DNA from: Tubiluchus corallicola
Taxonomy: Eukaryota > Priapulida > Priapulimorpha > Priapulimorphida > Tubiluchidae
DNA: 64,000 bases
Reading direction: 5' to 3'
Assembly (NCBI GenBank): GCA_030141605.1
Contig: JAQGDQ010000006.1
Location: 248,001 to 312,000, forward strand
Below are positions 7,701 to 64,000 of this stretch, one piece after another. Position 1 is the stretch's first letter; the number at the start of each line of letters is the position of its first letter. The notes beneath the pieces are model-generated. The model made no database searches and was not told the origin of the DNA. It saw nothing but the letters and a program-made list of their open reading frames with translations. Made by a program: the position numbers and the translations under genes.

Positions 7701-10700
7701 CAATAGGCTACATTAATAATTATGCTTTTGGAAGATTTTGCTCTTAGAAATGTGTATATTTACATATAATATTATGTTACTATTTTTATTTGCACCCTTG
7801 AGGCACTTTACCATCTGGACCAAATGTAAACAAAATTTGTGGCCCTGCTCCGTGAACTTATGGGAAAAAGCCATGTACAGTGGTCATTTCTAGTTATGAA
7901 AACTTTGATTCAGAAGTTAGAACCATGGTTTGAAAATCCATAATAAGTTGTAAGTTGTATTCTTACTGATCTTGTGAGAATTCACATGGACAAGAAAATG
8001 TTGTATTTAGTTATAGTTTTGTTTTTGCAAGCTATAAGTAAAATGTCAAGAATTGTATAACATTTATATTTATTGTATAATACTAAATTATGTGTCACTG
8101 AGCAGTCTAAAATGTGTTTTTCTCCATTTGCATTACAGGTGCCCACTATAAATGACCGTCAAGACTACAAAACTGTCATGGCAGCTATGAAGGCAATAGG
8201 CTTTGCATTCAACCATGCTGAAACTTTGTGGAAGATTGTTGCTGCCATTTTACATTTGGTAAGTATCAACAAACTTTTTGCATTATCCAGTCTATGTTTT
8301 TGGAAAGTTACTGGATAACTAGATATATTTTAATTGAAGATTACTTGAAAAATAGTTTTTATGAGTGTTGCAATGTTGAAATTTGTTGAGGTGTGCTGTA
8401 ATTTGTAAGACTCGGACAATTTTCATATATAAAGGCTTTGCATATTTAGTGTTAAAATTGTTTGAATATATATTTACCTTTTTATGTTCTCAGAAATATA
8501 CATAATAATACAAAGATACAATTAATAGCATAAAAACTATGATAGCGAAATCAGGCATTACAGACACTTTGAGCAATACCTCATCTAATCAAGTTACCAA
8601 ATTATTTTAAAAAGCTGAGAATGCATATTGTTAACACTGGACTAAATTTAAGTAGCCATCTTCCAATGGAATGTATATTTCAGGGCAATATAGAGTTTGC
8701 CCAAGAAGAAGACCACACCTTAGTGACTACCAAAGACAAGTTAAAGATTCTTTCCGAGTTGATGGGTGTTACAGAAAATGACCTGCAGGAGGCGCTGTGC
8801 TCTCGAGTAATTGCTGCACGTGGAGAAGTAGTGAATAAGGTGCACACTGTACCTGAGGCGCTGTATGGAAGAGACGCTTTTGCAAAGGTCTGTATATTAA
8901 ATAATTATCATTTGCAGTATGGTATATGTGTCAATGAAATTTACAGTTGGTACCAAACAGATACAAAATCAACCCAAACTACTACGAGACTGACTTACTC
9001 AAGTTAATGTGAGACAATTATTTAGATCAAATATGGCAAGTCGTATCATTATATGCTGCATCTTTTCTCCATTCTTAGGCTTTGTATGAGCGAATGTTTT
9101 CTTGGATAGTGAAGCGAATAAACCAGGCTATAGAAGTCAAACCAAATGGCTTTCGAAATTCGATGATTGGCAAGCACACAGTGATCGGTGTACTTGACAT
9201 TTACGGATTTGAAGTTTTTGATAATAATAGGTAAGCTAACCAAGTACTTAAAATAACATAAAGAAAGGTCAGACCTTAATAAAATCATGTTGTGTATTAC
9301 ACTGTGTTATTGTTCTGCAGAAATTGCATAATATTTGGTATAATGTATTTGTTTTTTAAGTTTGTTGGACAAGTGCTGCGGGTAACTAATTATTAAGTAC
9401 CTTGTTTAGGAATTGCTAAGATACAACTTTTAATACACGATTCTCAAAGAACATATAATAATGAATACAGAGTGAGCAGTTTGTTTATGATTGTGTAGTA
9501 TTTTTATTTTGTGTAGATTTGAAGTAGCAAGTGTTCCTTTTGTTTACACTGGTGTTTAGTATTTATATAATGGTAACATATCTGCTTTAATGATAACATT
9601 ATATTTACATGTTTTATCTTTCAGTTTCGAGCAATTCTGCATCAACTACTGCAATGAAAAACTTCAGCAATTATTCATTGAGCTGGTGTTGAAACAAGAA
9701 CAGGAAGAGTACACACGAGAGGGCATAGAATGGCAAAATGTATGTATACAATATTAATGTATTTTAATAATATTTCAAAAATGTTTGTTGTGTTGATTTG
9801 TGTTACTCCATTTTTAGTCATTTCATTTGCTGGAAAAACCTGAAGGTCCTCTAACTTTCCTGGTTTTTTGGGACTGAGTTTTTGTTATTCTTTTAGATGA
9901 AAGCTTTTTATACCTGATAAACTTTTATACCTGAGAATTTTTATTTTAATTTCATTCTTCTGCTTCAGCTTCCATTTATGGCTGAATAGTATCTCATGTT
10001 TTTGATATTTGCATCAGAATTGATGAATGACTATATTTGTTAGGTCGACTACTTCAATAACCAAATTATCTGTGATCTGGTTGAACAAGCACACAAGGGT
10101 ATAATTTCTATCTTAGATGAAGCCTGCTTAAACGTTGGTAAAGTTACAGACCAGGTAAGAAAATGACCAACTGTATCAGCAAATTGTTTAGTGTAAATTT
10201 TTGTTTTGGTACATAATGCAAAAATGACTGCTATTCAATACTTGAACAGAACGAACAAAATTTTAGACATTTACAATAGTACAGGAAAGAAACAATCTAA
10301 AATTTGGAAAAACAATGACAATACACGAAAACCAGCAGCAACATAAACTTGTGTAATAGTTTACTAAATTGGTTGTAATAATCATAATTAGAATATTTTT
10401 CTTACCTAGGCTATCAACTGAAAAACGCCCTGACTTTATCTGATCATACAGAAAATGTAGCTCCGCATTCCAAACCATATGCAGTTAGTCATAGATATCT
10501 TTGCATTTACGGTGGCATAATCAACAGCCAGTTTTTGCTGATACTGATACAATCAACAATCATGTCAGCTCATATGAAGTGCATGAGTTATAAAATTATG
10601 AAAGACGTTTTAAATTTCTTAGCTGCGAGTACCTTGCTGAGTGCGGTACATGTGAAAAAAGTAAAATATTCAAATACCGCAAATGGCAATTTATTAAAAT

Positions 10701-13700
10701 ATTTAACAACAGTTCACGAAAGTGTGGTAAGAAAAGCAGATTAAACTCAGTCGCATCATAGAAAAACTGATGCCACTGGGATTTGGAGGCTGTACAGCCA
10801 TTAAAAAATGCTAAACTAATCAAGTTATATGCCAAAGGTGATTTGCCTCTTCAGCTTACATAGTGTTTCCTCCATTTTCTCTGTTTCTCTTATAATTAAT
10901 TAGTATTAGTCTGTTACTTTGGGCAATTTGTATTTGCTGAATGCTTTGCTCATACATTGTCTTACTCTTGGACTACTTGTGTTTTATATTTACTGTATAT
11001 TTATATTTATTGTATATTGTAAAATGAAGGAACTAAAGGAGTTTATTAATAATTTTCTCTCTAGTTTTTTTATTTATTTAAGTCGATGAAAGTAGATGTT
11101 TTGAAAGTAGATATAGATCCATGTTAAGTAGATAAGCTCTGTGAATTTAATAATGTCTGCACTCAGTGCACTACTTTTCAACTTACACATTTAGTGGTGA
11201 GCTTTAGGGATGGTATTCTTACAGCAGGATAAAAAATGTAAGAATCTGCTTAATTGCTGTTTTAATTGCCCTGCTGCCCCAACAGGACACTGCTACAATT
11301 GTATGACATTTCAGAAATCATTTAATTATGACTTTCACTACATAAGCCTTGGCTTATAATTAGTTCGCATGATTCCAAAACATGTTAATAACTCTAACAT
11401 AAGTGTAAATTTTTAAGCTTTTGAGTTTTAAACCTGTATAGAATTCATTGGCTAAGTCACATATCATTTTAGATGTTCTTGGAAGCCATGGATCAAAAGC
11501 TTGCTAAACATGAGCATTATACGTCCAGACGGCTTCAAACTAGTGACAAGACGTTGCAGTTTGGAAAAGATTTTCGTATTAGACATTATGCCGGTGATGT
11601 CATATACATTGTTGACGGCTTCATAGACAAAAACAAAGATACACTCTTTCAAGATTTCAAGCGATTGTTATTTAACAGGTACCTCTGTCAATTTGTTAAG
11701 TTTGTACAGAAGTAAGATTATATTTTGATCAAGTCATGACAGATGTTGAAAATTCGTACCAAAGGTAAAACTGTGTTGATAATAGAACGTACATGTAATA
11801 TTGTTTTACCTCCATCTTTTCGTCTTTGTTTAGTTTTGCAGTTTGAAAATGTGTTAAATAAGAATGTTTTCTTTTGTATAATAATAATGATGTTTCATGT
11901 TTAGTGAGCATGAGCTTCTGCAGATGATGTGGCCAGAAGGTGGGAAGCACATTGCAGAAGTCACAAAGCGTCCAACTACAGCAGGGACAATGTTCAAAAA
12001 TTCCATGATAGCCTTGGTAGACCTTTTATCAAAGAAGGCATGTTTTCATTTATTAATTTCTAATGTTAGCTCTAACAGCTAATCAAAGACAGTTCAAATT
12101 CTGATTACATTTTCTGACTTACATTTTGCAGGAGCCGTACTATGTGCGGTGCATTAAACCAAATGAACTGAAATCACCGGTGGTTTTCAACTATGAAAGG
12201 GTGCTACATCAAGTTAACTACTTGGGTCTGCTTGAGAATGTTAGAGTTAGAAGAGCTGGTTTTGCATATCGAATGGCCTATACGCGATTCTTGGCAAGGT
12301 ATTTTATTTGGATTTCCAGGTCTATTGATATTATCAATAGAAGATGTTAAATGTGCAGTAAGAATGCTTCAATGAATTTTTTGAAGCACGATTTTACTAA
12401 TGTACTGTTCAGTGATTTAACAAAATAATTCATTTCAAATTTGAGCTCTGTTGAATAATTCTCTTAAAACATCTTCAATGTAGCTTTTCGGAATTGCTGT
12501 AATAATTGTTTTAAAATATATGCTATATTTTTACAGCTTCCATTAATGATGCAATGTCTAAACTGACAGTGCAACAATAATTGTTGTATATATTAAGTAT
12601 GAATGTTCGAATAAATGATGATAATTATAACTCAGTACAGCAAGCGACAGGAGTTAGAGTAATAATACTTAATAAATTAGTTATTGATTCACATTTCAGG
12701 TACAAAATGATTTCACAGTATACCTGGCCAAACTATCGTGGTCTTGACAGGGAAGGTGTGAAAACTCTGATTGATCAGTATGAGTTTGCTAATGATGTGA
12801 AATATGGGAAGACAAAGATTTTTATCAAATCACCACAAACCATTTTCTTCTTTGAAGAAGAAAGAGCTAAATATATTCCAGGAGTTGTCATCTTTCTGCA
12901 GAAGGTTTGTACTGGTTTTGGCTGACGATAAATTAAGCTGTCTGCAAGATTTCTTGTAATTTTTCTTTGTATTATTATTTGTTAATGCTTTGTTAATCAC
13001 ACACTACATTATGTATCATAATTCACTACAGTATATGATTAAAGGCAAAGTGCTGTTTAGTAAATTAAGATGCATTATACATTAGTTAAGTTATAAAAAA
13101 TGTTACATCTTGTACTAATAATTGTGCTAAATAATTACAGTTGTACTTTGTTTAGATATGGAGAGGAACTTTGGAACGGAAGAGATATAAGCAGAAGGTT
13201 GCTTTGTTGAAGATCATGGGCTGTTACAAGCGATATAAGCTGCGATGTTTCATGAAGGACCTCATCCAAAGATTCCAGTGAGTAAAATTTGTTTTGTAAC
13301 TCTTTGAAAAAAGAACAGTTTAGTATTTTATCATTGAAATTGATAAAGCTTGTTATTTGTCTGTTTGTTTTCTAGGAACGTGAGAAGCATGCCAGGATAT
13401 GGAAAAGATGTGCATTGGCCTGAGCCTCCAAAAGTTTTAGAAGTGTTTGTTCACGATCTGAAACGTGTGCACAATCGGTATGTTTTTTGATGTTACAACT
13501 ATTTTGTAGTATAAAAAATATATCAGAAATATTCTGAATGCAGTCATTTTACTGCAATGTATATGTCTGCTTATTTTTCTCAGATGGCGTGGTTATATGA
13601 TGATAAAAGACATTCCAAGAGAAACATGGCCAGAGGTCGAGAAGAAATGTTGTGCTTGGGATGCGTTGGCTGGACGTCGTGCAGAATGGGGCATTCGATT

Positions 13701-23200: not shown

Positions 23201-23746
23201 TGCCAGACCTATGGGATAGAGTTTTTTTAAGTACAAACTTTCAACAGTATTTTTAGAATCTTTCTGTTAGCGCTGGCTGGCGCAGGGGCGGGAAGCACAG
23301 TCCACCTTTAACATTCGATTCGTCAAGAAATATTGTCCAGACCTCTTCCTGCAGTTATAATAATTATTATTATTATTATAAAACGAACAAAAGTAAATTG
23401 AGTAACATGGTGTTGTAATATTAGTACGACGTAGGGAAAATATATATGATATAAGCACATTTTAGTTAGTGACGTTAGTTACATATTAGTCCTGTCTTGC
23501 CATACTATGGTAACTTCTCTACTACACAGACTGGAAGTCTGCTTATCCGTTCAGCTGGCGTTAATAAACAATAATTTTAAACACCGCAGCTAGCAAGCTG
23601 TAGCAGCAAATGTTATTATGATATCGTATTCACTTCCTTTCCCTGAGAAGCGAAGAGAGGATGTGAGTTGAATGATCTGGTACAACACGTACATTCCGAA
23701 TTCTGTCATGCATGGTTGAACGAGGCCATTTTCTGTCATTGTGAAA
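17257..23746. other. Intergenic region between MYO1D-like and fucosyltransferase genes
   Basis: AT-rich sequence starting with the myosin 3' UTR. Apart from the transposase remnant described separately, I see a short TA tract near 19726 and a (TAA)n run at 20544-20568. The latter is next to sequence that, read on the minus strand, could be a LINE 3' end. Open frames here (for example 20976-21332 and its reverse) show no recognisable domain or splice context. Confidence 0.6.
17617..17880 (-). pseudogene. Mariner/IS630-like transposase C-terminal remnant
   Basis: Read on the minus strand, one frame gives IGWPVRSSPHLFIW and a shifted frame gives VYNDKTIDKVKATIHQTL. This order resembles the C-terminal 'WPxRSPDL...FFLWGYLK..VY' block of Tc1/mariner-type DDE transposases. 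At least two frame changes and a stop interrupt it, so it is dead. Just beyond its stop, 17464-17480 and 17538-17556 form a short inverted pair around AGGTATCA-TTACCTT, possibly a terminal repeat. The family call depends on short motifs. Confidence 0.42.
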
Positions 23747-24901
23747 ATGATAATACGGAACGTAGATACCGCGTTTGTGTTATTCCTGGTTTTATTAGCA
23801 GCAGGGATTTGTGTACTTTTCCTACGAGCTTTTAACCTCCATAATTATTCGTACAGCGTGTATTTCATTAAAACGCACAGCTTGTTTTTAGAACCAAGCG
23901 GAAATCACTTATCAGGAAACCGCATCAGGAACAGCGAAGCAAACCGAAGGCCTTTGACACGAATTTTGTTTTGGAATAGGTTTTCATCTTTTGATGCGTT
24001 CAATTTTGGTTTAGGAAATGAACCATTTCAAAAGTTCCATTGTCCTGTGTCGGAGTGTGAAACTACTGAAGACAAGTTACTGATAAACAGCAGCAGTGCT
24101 ATTGTTATCAACATGGACATTCCTTTAATACATTTTGAACTGCCGCAGCATAGATTTTTCTGGCAAAGTTGGGTGTATTTTTCATTAGAACCGCCAGTGT
24201 ACGCTAGAAATCCAAATTTTTCATCATTAAATAATCTTTTTAATTTGACGCTGACATACAAATCGAATTCGGATGTAATCCGATGGTACGGGAATATTTA
24301 CGCCGGCCGTCGTCCTCAGATGGGAACAAACTTTGCTGCTAACAAAACAAGATTAGTAGCCTGGATTGTGAGTCGCTGTAAAAGTTCAAGTAGACGCGAA
24401 GTTTTAGTTGAACAACTGCAAGAATTTATCCCAGTTGACATATACGGTCGATGCGGTAATCTAACTTGTCCTAGAAACATCTCGTGTATGCAAATGATAG
24501 AGCAAAATTATAAATTTTATTTATCCTTTGAAAATGCAGTATGTAAAGACTATGTTACGGAGAAATTTTTTAATGTTCTGCGCTGGAACATTGTTCCCAT
24601 TGTGTTGGGAGGAGCCAACTATTCCAACATTGCTCCTAAAACTGCATACATTGACGTCAACAATTTCTCTTCTGCTAAACAGCTTGCTACCTATCTATTG
24701 TTTTTGGATCAAAATCCCGATGCGTATAATGAGTATTTTTCTTGGAAGGGAAAGCATCGCTTTATCCACAAACACTCGTTTTGCGACCTTTGCGCTCTCT
24801 TAAATAACAAAAGTGCCAATGAAAAAATACTTGGTGATGTAGAAGATTTTTGGAGTGTGGATAGTGAATGTGTAAATGGCGGCTGGTGGAATAAAAGCTG
24901 A
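23747..24901 (+). CDS. Alpha-(1,3)-fucosyltransferase, GT10 family, intronless
   Basis: A Golgi type II membrane enzyme that transfers fucose from GDP-fucose to N-acetylglucosamine-containing glycans. The frame is uninterrupted for 384 residues from the ATG at 23747; a GTG two codons upstream is not a likely start. A short cytosolic tail is followed by a hydrophobic anchor (about residues 9-27), a stem, and the GT10 catalytic domain. Diagnostic segments are VAWIVSRCKSSSRRE, VDIYGRCGNLTCPR, FYLSFENAVCKDYVTEKFFN and VPIVLGGANYS, the last two carrying the GDP-fucose-binding signature. NxS/T sites are present. It is one exon among intron-rich neighbours, so it may derive from retroposition or belong to an intronless subfamily. 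Acceptor specificity (core alpha-1,3 versus Lewis type) cannot be read from sequence. Confidence 0.93.
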   Translation: MIIRNVDTAFVLFLVLLAAGICVLFLRAFNLHNYSYSVYFIKTHSLFLEPSGNHLSGNRIRNSEANRRPLTRILFWNRFSSFDAFNFGLGNEPFQKFHCPVSECETTEDKLLINSSSAIVINMDIPLIHFELPQHRFFWQSWVYFSLEPPVYARNPNFSSLNNLFNLTLTYKSNSDVIRWYGNIYAGRRPQMGTNFAANKTRLVAWIVSRCKSSSRREVLVEQLQEFIPVDIYGRCGNLTCPRNISCMQMIEQNYKFYLSFENAVCKDYVTEKFFNVLRWNIVPIVLGGANYSNIAPKTAYIDVNNFSSAKQLATYLLFLDQNPDAYNEYFSWKGKHRFIHKHSFCDLCALLNNKSANEKILGDVEDFWSVDSECVNGGWWNKS

Positions 24902-37748: not shown

Positions 37749-40700
37749 ATATAAAAACTGGAGTGACAACTCCTGCCACGATGTAGGCAACAACCACGAT
37801 AGCTTATGGGTTATCAGTCCCAAGTAGATAATTTATAGTCAAGGAGTTGAGGGGTTTATGATAGTCACTATGAATACCTGGACAATTATAATAAGTAACT
37901 ACTGGGTGGAATACAATGTTGATGAAAATTTGAGTGACGCCTTGTGACCAAGGTTGGACAACAGGTGTTATGAGTTGTACAGGTACACATAAGGATAGCA
38001 GCAAAAATGAGAAGTGAAATATGAAAGTGATGCATTTTGTGTACAACGTTTGTATTGGTTATTGTTAAAAATGAAGACACAGCAAATTTTAATGCATGTG
38101 GCAAGGAAAGGTGAATTGTTGTAAAGCCTTGAGAGATTGTAGAACTACAATTAAATACTCGTAGCACCCAAAATAGATATCCTTGGCTTTTATTCTCTAC
38201 AGCTTAAAGGCAATAAAACCTGAGCCACTAGAGGTTTCTAATTCAGTGACCTGGCCTCACCCACTGGACAAAGGCTGATAAATATGGAATCATCAGAACT
38301 TTATCATGACATAATGAAAGATGTCTGTGACAGATAGAGAGTTCAGAAAACTCAGGCATTGTTAAATGCTGATTCACTGCTAAATACCGGTTAGCAGTGT
38401 GTTGCATTACATAAAAATATAAAACAATATTAAAGTTTTGCAGTTGCAAATGCTCAGTAATCCAATTTATCAGTACTTCATGTCAAGCTAATCAAATCAG
38501 TAGGAATTGCAATAGGCTAGTGAAACCAAGCACAGTCACAGATTGCAAAAAAGCTAAATTTGCAGTTACAATGGACAAGAGTCCCAATTATTATTAAAAA
38601 GCAAAAAGTTTATAATTCATGCAGGCCACTATACAGTTTGTAATCACTTTTTCAGATATTTATGAAAATGAGAGGTAACAGAGTACAAGATATCCGAAGA
38701 AACCCGAATAATTGCCCAATTGTTGGGACATTTTTTGTACAACATCAGTTCACAGATTATGTTGGAGTACAGCACATGTATTTTTCTGGGAATGAAATAG
38801 CTGCATTTTCTGTTAGGTACGTTATTAATCTAGTAAATCTACTAATGTGTAAATTGCAAATGTTTTAGATAAACAATTGTTCCAGTGTAACTGCCATGTC
38901 AGTAGACAATCTGTAGAAGATGTATAATAATAGAAATCTGTAACACATGAAGCCACTTCTGTCACTGTTATAGAGCATTTGTGAAACAGCAAAAAGGTTT
39001 GCTATTAGAGACTTCCTCTAGCAACTAACTTATCTAATGCAATTATACTGCTGACTTGTTAACCAAATGGCAATCTTTGCAGTCATCGCACCCCAGCGGA
39101 ATACTGGAAGACTGCCAACGTTGACCAATGGGCAGAAGAGTTTGGGCCTCAACACACAATGTTCGCAACATTCGCAAGTGTTAATGACGTGAAAGGTGTA
39201 AAGGCACCATTTCTGGAAATGGGAGGCGATAACATGTTTAGCATGATGGAGTCAAATGGCTATGATTGGGACATGAGCTGGTCCACTCCACAGATGGGAG
39301 AGGAACCAATATTCCCTTTTACGCTTGATTACAGGGCAAATATAGGCTGTGCGATTGAACCATGTCCTGTACAATCACATCCAGGTTAGTAAAAGTTAGA
39401 AAACATAGTCAAATTGCATGAAGTTACATGTTATTACTTGCTGAAGTCTAGTAAAAGACCATGACCATGACCATGCTCTGCTGCTTGAATGCATGTCTAC
39501 CTAATGTATTGTCACAGTTTCATGCAATGTACCTTCTCTTTCATGGGTGGCAATCTATATGTACTAGTTACTGGATACCAAGCATATGATTAGATTTTAA
39601 AAGGCATACAAAGGCAATTTTAAAGTATGTCCCAAAAAACATTCCACACAAAGTTATAATACTTAGCATTACACTTCCCTACTTGAGACTTACATAACTA
39701 GAAAAGAAAATTCTTAGTAATTTGTTTCAAACAACTCAGTGTTAAAATGGTTATGTTTAACGATTAACAAGGGAGTTTAAATTTACAAGTTCTATACAGC
39801 ATTATTGTTAATGCAGTAAGACAATATACGAGTGATATAAAATTTCAAGACAGATTTTTCAAGCTTTATTTATGAAGATGTTTTTTTGTGCTTTAACTTG
39901 GTATTTCTCAACAGGTAAATGGGAGGTTTCGCTAGTCAACTGGATAGACACAAACGATACACTTTGCAGCAATGTAGATGCATGCTATATGCCAAATGAC
40001 AAGGAAGAAGCTTTAGAGCTGCTCCGCACAAATTTTGACAGGCATTACAGGAGCAATCGGGCACCAATTCCACTGGTTCTTCGCCCAAGGTGAATAACAA
40101 ATGCATTGAAATTTCAGTCAAAATGCATTTTATCTAAAAGAAATGCCCTGTAGGCTTTTCTTTTCCACCACTGTAATTAAACTGAAACAGGTTGCTAATT
40201 CTGAAGTAACAATAATTACTAATTAAATCTGTTTCCAGTGCCATAAGGGTTTATTTACTAGCTTCGTAGAAGAAGTAAATAATTGAGTAGCTATCACAGA
40301 CTTGTGCTTATCTGCAAAGTTATGCAATGATGGGTCCTTTAGTAAATGGATAGGTAACAGTTTCTGGGCAATGAATCTGTTGCATTACTATTAGCTATTT
40401 ATCTCATCAATGGAGAATACCAAGAATAGTATATATAATGTTTACGTGTCCAAAAAAACTTCAGACAGTTTAATATCATTTCAACATTACCTCAGATTAG
40501 TAAGATTTCAGCCACAGTCATGTACATTAAGTACCAGTTGTTACCATGCACAAAAACAACAAACGTTTGTCGATTTTGGCTTTGCATAATTTTTTTCAAT
40601 TTTCACTCTTTTTTAGGTGGTTCTATGAAAACCACTACAACTTAGAAGCACTTCAAGAATGGCTTCAAGAGCTAGAAGAAATGCCAGATGTCTACTTTGT

Positions 40701-40944
40701 CACAGTGAGCGATGCTTTGCGGTGGATGAAGAACCCAGTGTCTAATACAGAGGCTGCCGACTTCTTTGGATGTGATTACAGTGACCGTGTACCAGCCTGC
40801 TTAGGAAGCCTCCTGTGTGAATATATGAATATCACATACCCACCAAATAGCGAGGAACATCCAGGAGACAGATTCTTGCATACTTGTGCCGACGCCTGTC
40901 CTGACGTCTACCCCTGGACAGACAATCCTACAGGAAAACTTTGA
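28818..40944 (+). CDS. Secreted chitin-deacetylase-like protein (CBM14-LDLa-CE4), probable pseudoenzyme
   Basis: Exons: 28818-28866, 30786-30936, 34729-34871, 36454-36564, 36911-37068, 38656-38816, 39083-39384, 39915-40089, 40617-40944, giving 525 residues; all splice phases agree. Order: signal peptide (MRALVALCFMLILCTYA), six-cysteine CBM14 chitin-binding module, six-cysteine LDL-receptor class A module (about residues 132-150), then a carbohydrate-esterase-4 deacetylase domain. The architecture matches arthropod serpentine/vermiform-type chitin deacetylases. Active-site motifs are altered: TFDDA is TWENA (188-192), HSxSH is FSVSH (255-259), the arginine of RAPxL is Lys298, and the catalytic His of the 'FHAAW' segment is Arg415. 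The base, most metal ligands and the acid are therefore missing. Structural motifs (GTFFV, YFVTVSDALRWM) are intact, so the fold is kept. I infer a chitin- or matrix-binding role without deacetylation. Confidence 0.92.
30617..30721. mobile_element. Very short TIR/hairpin element
   Basis: The left arm TCAGACGTAGAGAGTTCTCGC (about 30618-30638) matches the reverse complement of the right arm (about 30700-30720) with two mismatches. The ~105-bp interior contains a perfect palindrome, TTGTTGCGCAACAA. It lies ~65 bp upstream of the second exon of the deacetylase-like gene. It looks like a miniature element; the superfamily is undetermined. Confidence 0.5.
33608..33765 (+). repeat. Purine-rich low-complexity tract
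   Basis: About 155 bp of nearly pure A/G with rare C, in a deacetylase-like gene intron. Open frames on the opposite strand across it encode only F/S/L-rich sequence and are composition artefacts. Confidence 0.8.
37611..37742. repeat. (TA)n and compound (AT)n(GT)n microsatellites
   Basis: A TA run at 37612-37635, then, after about 48 bp, an AT run (37682-37710) passing straight into GT (37711-37743). All lie in the intron before exon 38656. Confidence 0.85.
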
Positions 40945-47701: not shown

Positions 47702-59595
<11,894 letters not shown>

Positions 59596-62666: not shown

Positions 62667-62672
62667 TTTATT
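62667..62672 (-). terminator. Candidate polyadenylation signal for MYG1
   Basis: AATAAA on the minus strand, about 113 nt after the MYG1 stop codon (62785-62787). Confidence 0.4.
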
Positions 62673-62784: not shown

Positions 62785-63851
62785 TTACTTGGATGGGTTT
62801 AGTTCAAGTGATTTTTTACACATTTCTAATGCTCCCTTGTAAGTTTTATTCCCTCCACAGAAGCCATTGGCATGTACAAACACACAATCAGGAATACCTG
62901 TTACTTTACTCAGTTCTTCATCCCGTAAACCTCGCCATTCCTCCGGGAAAGGAAGCCTATATTACACACATTCATATAAACACAAGCAATAAACCTGGAA
63001 CTTCACTAATCATAATATAATTGCTGCTGTAACTTTTGGTGTGTGGATAATGTGGTGTGTCACTGAGCGTGCAAACACAATAGAGTTGTCAGATTGATGA
63101 TATTATAATGATTCTGTAATAATACAGAAAATTAAAAGTATTAGACCTCATTCTAATACCACTAGAAAACAAACATTTTACACAATTATTGTCCATCTGT
63201 AATGATCCGACACTGTATAAATTGGTTGCAGCAATGAACTAGATTCAAAGCTAGTGCAAATATAGGCTAGCGAAAACCCAAAATATTTTGTTGGCAACTT
63301 TACTGTCTTCTAGTCGTGCCACTGGTCTGACAAATCAATATGCCTAAAGCATTAACACTGTCTATGAACTATCATGCTTTCTTTCTTGCTGATACTATGC
63401 TTTCAATATGACGATATGTGTCACAATTTATATAATAGTATTATTTAACAATTGTGAAACTAATACCTGCAGTGGAAGCAATTAGGAAATAATGGAGCAC
63501 TCTGGTTGATCCAAGTGCTACCTTCTGCGTACAAGACATACTTAATTTCTTGTTCTATTCCCAAAGAAAATTCAAGAGAAAATAAGTGATCCTCCCAAGG
63601 AAGCAAGCGATTAAAAACAACAACTTCGCCACTTGCATAAGCCTGATAAAATAAAAAGAATATTACCTGTTTGTAAACGTATGAGAATCAACTGGAACAC
63701 ATTGATTACGCCAGGTGTCATGCTCTTCATCAGCAAACAGAACATATTTTATTGGAACATCCACCTTCAGCTTAACTTCAAGGTCAAATAGATGATCTTT
63801 CCAAGGACAGCCAGTCTGCTTGAAGGATATTATCTCCCCCGTTTTGTGAAC
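62785..63851 (-). CDS. MYG1: MYG1 exonuclease (UPF0160), 3' part
   Basis: C-terminal part of a DHH-type nuclease-related protein that in vertebrates acts in nucleus and mitochondria on RNA processing. In transcription order: exon A 63667-63851, exon B 63467-63642 (an alternative to A), terminal exon 62785-62956 ending in TAA. Human MYG1 carries CPWKEHL, WRIQCVP and LPEPWRGLRDE in this order. Here exon A gives CPWKDHLFDLE and WRNQCVP, and the terminal exon gives LPFPEEWRGLRDEELSKVTG, then IPDCVFVHANGFCGGNKTYKG. Both A and B start in phase 0, end with AG after two codon bases and splice to the same G of the terminal exon. The N-terminal catalytic part lies right of the window. With A the product matches the family; with B it carries a diverged version. 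Confidence 0.9.
63467..63642 (-). other. MYG1 alternative exon B (diverged copy)
   Basis: 58 codons plus two bases, acceptor AG at 63643-63644 and donor GTATTA beginning at 63466. Aligns along its whole length with exon A: GE, PW-DHLF-LE, IKYVL-A, W-NQ and P are shared. Both family cysteines are replaced (LLPW, NQSAP). The open frame and both splice sites are intact, which argues against a dead copy. Confidence 0.8.
63667..63851 (-). other. MYG1 alternative exon A (canonical version)
   Basis: 61 codons plus two bases. The acceptor AG is at 63852-63853 and the donor GTAATA begins at 63666. It keeps both cysteines conserved with human MYG1 (GCPWKDHL and RNQCVP). Confidence 0.85.
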
Positions 63852-64000
63852 CTATTGCCCAACAAGAATTATTCTTTGGCGTGAAACAGACTAAATCTAG
63901 TGATAGCATTTTCTTTCAACAGGAATCCAATTTTCCACAGGTGCAGCAATGTACTTATGTATAATCAGGAAGTCATATAATATAACACATTGTCAACATA

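Follow-up and report, generated by a model that had tools for sequence, protein, structure and literature searches.

Analysis of the window, i.e., the whole 64,000-nucleotide stretch of the Tubiluchus corallicola contig, revealed the 3' part of a gene for MYG1, known as CG11980 in the fly, in which one internal exon has probably undergone an old tandem duplication, the two copies, named exons A and B here, now presumably being used in a mutually exclusive manner. The pair displays the sequence features of such exons, namely homology, a common phase, similar length, a frame clash upon joining, and a short intervening intron of 24 nt, and the open frame was demonstrated together with the downstream neighbor, the terminal coding exon T. 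Mutually exclusive exons and their steric enforcement are well known, and the MYG1 pair is a probable, apparently undescribed, and unusually tight example of both.

The layout of the region is given in Table 1. Both A and B possess an AG acceptor and a GT donor, start at the same MYG1 alignment column just before a GEI/GEV motif, and end in the same split arginine, whose codon consists of the AG at the end of A or B and the first G of T. The original prediction had described two homologous segments of about 60 residues with identical phases, each joining in frame to one terminal exon, and a frameshift with a stop after about 30 codons upon joining A to B. All of this was borne out: the segments comprise 62 and 59 residues, the exon boundaries place the entry of both at phase 0 (first base) and the exit at phase 2, A+T and B+T are each open as far as one common TAA, and the shifted frame of A+B+T terminates after 28 codons, neither exon length being a multiple of three. 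Read-through from A into the following intron leads to an immediate TAA; the length of this intron had not been part of the earlier description. Judging from their acceptors, A and B appear to be internal exons with the previous exon lying beyond the window, in which 149 nt of sequence 5' of A are present. Two stretches within these 149 nt gave no Pfam match, and a candidate relic of the preceding exon, taken up at 63869-63992 on account of some W-I-P and RF-like letters, was dropped for lack of a Pfam match.

Table 1. Features at the 3' end of the MYG1 gene in window coordinates (a slash marks an exon boundary; ss, splice site)
Feature	Position	Strand	Length and remarks
Exon A	63851..63667	minus	185 nt; 62 residues including the split last codon; canonical-like MYG1 segment
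Exon A splice sites			acceptor ...CAATAG/GTT; donor CAG/GTAATA
A-B intervening intron	63643..63666	minus	24 nt, GTAATATTCTTTTTATTTTATCAG
Exon B	63642..63467	minus	176 nt; 59 residues including the split last codon; diverged alternative of A
Exon B splice sites			acceptor TTTTATCAG/GCT; donor CAG/GTATTA
Candidate branch points of B (yTnAy adenines)	63688, 63682, 63674	minus	45, 39, and 31 nt from the 3'ss; within coding exon A
Candidate branch point of B (A in GTAAT)	63663	minus	20 nt from the 3'ss; on the 5' splice site of A; found by eye
Terminal coding exon T	62956..62785	minus	172 nt including the stop TAA; common to A and B; AG acceptor
AATAAA, poly(A)-signal-like hexamer	62667..62672	minus	starts 113 nt beyond the stop; read in the sequence

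Assignment to the MYG1 family was based on matches to the Pfam family PF03690 and to PDB chains of MYG1 exonuclease. Taken alone, A scored 54.5 bits and B 35.0 bits against PF03690 (cut-off 22.1), with A aligning to profile positions 209-268 of 318, and joined to T the scores amounted to 148.9 bits (A+T) and 129.1 bits (B+T). The PDB chains matched A+T with an E value of 2.8e-35 and B+T with 2.7e-27, and for both products the matches cover the C-terminal third of MYG1 / UPF0160 (PF03690; PDB 24ah and others). A tblastn search with A against the window retrieved B at an E value of 5.9e-12. The two share 26/59 aligned residues (53% identity at the nucleotide level), and their local BLOSUM62 score of 121 compares with a mean of 20.8 (SD 4.1) and a maximum of 57 in 5000 shuffles of B. 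Judged by these comparisons, the homology of A and B is beyond chance. An open frame of 59 codons alone is weak evidence, since 4837 of the 127,646 start positions in the window, both strands counted, are open over such a length.

When the 3526 six-frame fragments of the window were searched with a profile combining both exons and the PDB MYG1 segment, no third copy or relic of the exon was detected, the next best fragment reaching 7.8 bits (E 0.58). No A/B repeat of at least 20 nt was detected at the DNA level in the repeat search of the window, as expected at the given nucleotide identity, and scans of the window for Rfam families and tRNAs remained empty. Bacterial MYG1 relatives were identified in 6 of the 29 stretches obtained from a scan of prokaryotes and are useful as outgroups only, and the sole match in scans of viral contigs, an IMG/VR contig (L007) matching over 13 residues at the tail of an unrelated frame, was taken as chance.

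In regard to the age of the duplication, the distance between A and B is about the same as that between A and the PDB MYG1 chain, with 24/59 identities for A and the PDB chain and 20/56 for B and the PDB chain. A topology test on 61 segment columns, including five of the six bacterial rows (L005 was left out as nearly identical to L004), favored A and B as sisters, with AU p values of 0.82, 0.24, and 0.07 excluding none of the topologies, so that the duplication may have followed or preceded the split from the lineage of the PDB MYG1; bp-RELL marked the topology with B and PDB as sisters as excluded (0.024). From these distances, either the duplication is old or B is evolving fast.

Several estimates addressed selection on exon B. 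Between A and B, dN amounted to 0.53, and dS was saturated (1.8 by LWL85, undefined by NG86, 9.7 by maximum likelihood, and none obtained by YN00), so there has been time enough to scramble an unconstrained copy. Differences at the three codon positions numbered 29, 21, and 33, and the third-position skew is not significant (p 0.26), which is explained by saturation yet lends no support to constraint. In a neutral simulation placing all divergence on B, 162/4000 sequences stayed open and 0/4000 retained 26 identities, with a best score against A of 123, slightly above the real 121; with half of the divergence on B, 610/4000 stayed open and 3978/4000 retained at least 26 identities. This identity-based test is thus mixed, its outcome depending on the branch where the change fell.

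As a further measure, five bacterial proteins plus the PDB chain were combined into a profile independent of both exons, against which A scored 27.3 bits and B 20.0 bits. Of 1000 simulated neutral descendants of A at each divergence, 397, 106, 8, 6, 0, and 0 were open and scored at least as high as B at 0.05, 0.1, 0.2, 0.3, 0.45, and 0.9 substitutions per site, respectively, with exon A standing in for the ancestor and with substitutions only, i.e., without indels or splice sites. Since synonymous sites are saturated yet the frame and the profile score were kept, B is, on this reasoning, not a long-dead copy. It was probably constrained through most of its history, and a release from constraint could fall within the last c. 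0.1 substitutions per site. The latter leads to the strongest rival explanation, which we regard as improbable and nevertheless worth weighing, namely that B was an alternative exon for long and has recently been abandoned or is nearly unused, so that no protein is produced from it in this species any more. B has diverged further from the PDB chain than A has (20/56 against 24/59 identities), scores lower against PF03690 (35.0 against 54.5 bits) as well as against the independent profile (20.0 against 27.3), and would often survive neutral drift of 0.05-0.1 substitutions per site intact (397 and 106 of 1000). Against abandonment, B displays neither a stop nor a frameshift nor a lost splice site, and its acceptor possesses a better pyrimidine tract than that of A (75% against 45%).

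Under the favored reading of mutually exclusive use, the 24-nt intron is the most telling feature of the pair; within it, the donor of A lies back to back with the acceptor and pyrimidine tract of B. The pyrimidine content was 75% before B (20 nt ahead of the CAG) and 45% before both A and T, and since the T acceptor also has 45%, this content is no strong guide to acceptor choice. Five yTnAy sites were found in the 60 nt before the B acceptor, three of them in exon A and the others at distances of just 4 and 9 nt, the latter being taken as too close for branching; no yTnAy site at least 18 nt from the 3' splice site is present within the 24-nt intron. The branch consensus of the fly is CTAAT. 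By eye, the GTAAT at the donor of A is one base off this consensus. Whichever candidate serves, the branch point of B likely lies on the 5' splice site of A or within the coding sequence of A, and for this reason A and B should not be spliceable to each other.

The spacing agrees with this expectation. According to the excerpted text of PMC6692369, a minimum spacing of about 50 nt between 5' splice site and branch site is needed, and in one pre-mRNA no spliceosome assembled at 35 nt; a threshold of about 50 nt from 5' splice site to branch point also appears in the excerpts of PMC5740500 and PMC7969005, and insufficient intron length is put forward as a mechanism of mutual exclusion for exon pairs in that of PMC6071210. 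Here, the whole intron measures 24 nt, and any branch point inside it would be closer than that to the donor, the branch points themselves being predicted. In addition to the positions of the candidates, we considered that the last coding bases and the 5' splice site of A also serve B as its branch site, forming an overlapping either/or switch at a single site that is old, kept across the wider lineage of the host, and lets one gene encode two MYG1 RNA exonucleases with distinct functions. We propose this fuller version tentatively and consider it possible rather than probable; the terminal AG of A, which sits between the branch candidates in exon A and the AG of B, counts against the overlap. 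The 24-nt intron also offers a small, experimentally tractable example in which a 5' splice site and a putative branch site overlap.

Based on these features, the pre-mRNA would be spliced either from the upstream exon beyond the window to A and on to T, or from the upstream exon to B and on to T. Recruitment of U2 for B would occupy the end and the donor of A, which would then be removed along with the intron, and definition of the A donor by U1 would occupy the branch region of B, with splicing proceeding to T. Leakage into an A-B product or into read-through would meet a premature stop. The choice would therefore be a competition between the A acceptor (45% pyrimidine) and the B acceptor (75%), presumably tuned by trans factors, and both products would keep the N-terminal DHH part and the terminal exon T. 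A docking/selector RNA structure of the Dscam type would not be needed for a cluster of two exons with a 24-nt intron.

The same stops, immediate upon read-through of the intron and after 28 codons upon A-B joining, would also suit a poison or regulatory arrangement, in which B mainly lowers MYG1 output via degraded B-containing or A-B read-through RNAs and makes no second protein; we consider this very unlikely, as the B+T frame is open and the protein sequence of B looks constrained, for which a poison exon, needing no conserved MYG1 sequence, would have no use. Hardly credible, finally, is a broken or partial MYG1 copy in which A, B, and T belong to a gene that does not work, since all three exons retain open frames and intact splice sites and the stop is followed by an AATAAA, and in its favor stands the position of the upstream MYG1 exons beyond the window. 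The original prediction of mutually exclusive exons is partly supported: the sequence features of the pair fit it, and past selection on B is backed by the neutral simulations, whereas the inference from lost cysteines is weakened.

This inference had started from two conserved cysteines said to be lost from B, suggesting two proteins with different C-terminal properties. Exon A and the PDB MYG1 chain indeed have both cysteines in common; B has L and S at these sites. The six bacterial MYG1 proteins lack both of them, the first site being occupied by M or V and the second by A or G, and therefore the two cysteines are not required across the family and B cannot be regarded as defective on account of their absence; for the same reason, the argument for differing C-terminal properties is weak. 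Exon B harbors two other cysteines close to its end (NCFHCR).

As the DHH motif is N-terminal in the six bacterial relatives (L001-L006), the catalytic residues should be common to both products. The A and B forms would differ in a stretch of about 60 residues in the C-terminal part, which would most likely affect substrate, partner, or stability and not catalytic chemistry. In a structural model of the bacterial relative L001, the swapped segment contains two predicted strands (193-199 and 205-211), which may serve as a hint only, as the model had a mean pLDDT of 65.2, with residues 171-192 and 213-222 below 50. A Foldseek search with this model resulted in 188 matches at E values of up to 10, with 0 at 0.001 or below and no MYG1 or DHH protein among the best 50 of the 188. 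Placing the swapped segment by this structure was consequently rejected, model and Foldseek result being too poor.

Among known systems, alpha-tropomyosin contains a mutually exclusive pair enforced by a short distance between 5' splice site and branch point. In OGDH, exons 4a and 4b are mutually exclusive, with the block arising from branch points at a distance of 25-41 nt from the 5' splice site, and the intervening intron measures 118-131 nt in birds and mammals with the branch points inside, as far as the excerpt of PMC7969005 goes. Like both of these, the MYG1 pair consists of tandem-duplicated homologous exons in which a 5' splice site and a branch region are too close for joint splicing. 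Unlike OGDH, where the branch points lie within the intron, its intron is only 24 nt long, and the branch point of B would fall on the 5' splice site of A or within exon A. With the case described in the available part of PMC5740500 it shares exon lengths not divisible by three (185 and 176 nt) and a joined product with a premature stop; in contrast to that case, the MYG1 pair would be safeguarded by a frame clash and a steric block together.

The earlier statement that no such exon pair is known for MYG1 agrees with the openly licensed PMC literature, in which, judged by titles and the beginnings of abstracts, no alternative exon pair of MYG1 is described. Likewise, no paper in this openly licensed literature paired an exonic branch point with mutually exclusive exons. 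The A and B isoforms may already be listed in annotation databases; a table in the excerpted text of a paper on whitefly methylation includes the entry 'UPF0160 protein MYG1, mitochondrial isoform X2', without exon detail (PMC11721087). The 3'-5' RNA exonuclease MYG1 is widely conserved and in human cells occurs in both the nucleus and the mitochondria (PMC11167044, in excerpt), and an antiviral role is given for yeast MYG1 (PMC10089162, in excerpt). If the proposed switch is true, one MYG1 gene would give rise to two versions differing in part of the C-terminal region, and the diverged exon B would provide a natural set of substitutions for probing the role of the swapped segment.

Apart from MYG1, some further features were identified in the window. 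Exons of an unconventional myosin were found on the plus strand at about 1751-2335, 8573-9004, and 12581-12922, the first stretch being read by eye, the second matching the myosin-head Pfam family with 39.8 bits, and the third reaching 14.1 bits, which is below the cut-off. Two open stretches at 39063-39386 and 40531-40941 (plus strand), which we take to resemble the end of a chitin deacetylase, gave no Pfam match. A coiled-coil open frame at 54196-54561 (plus strand) resembled, by eye, a dynein regulatory complex protein, with Pfam showing sub-threshold matches to other families only. On the minus strand, an open reverse transcriptase fragment of 330 residues (56309-57298; RVT_1, 76.6 bits) has long simple repeats of (TC)n/(GA)n in its vicinity and appears non-LTR-like by eye. 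Finally, an apparently intronless open frame of 393 residues from stop to stop (23720-24898, plus strand) encodes a putative GT10 alpha-1,3-fucosyltransferase with both the N- and the C-terminal Pfam domains.
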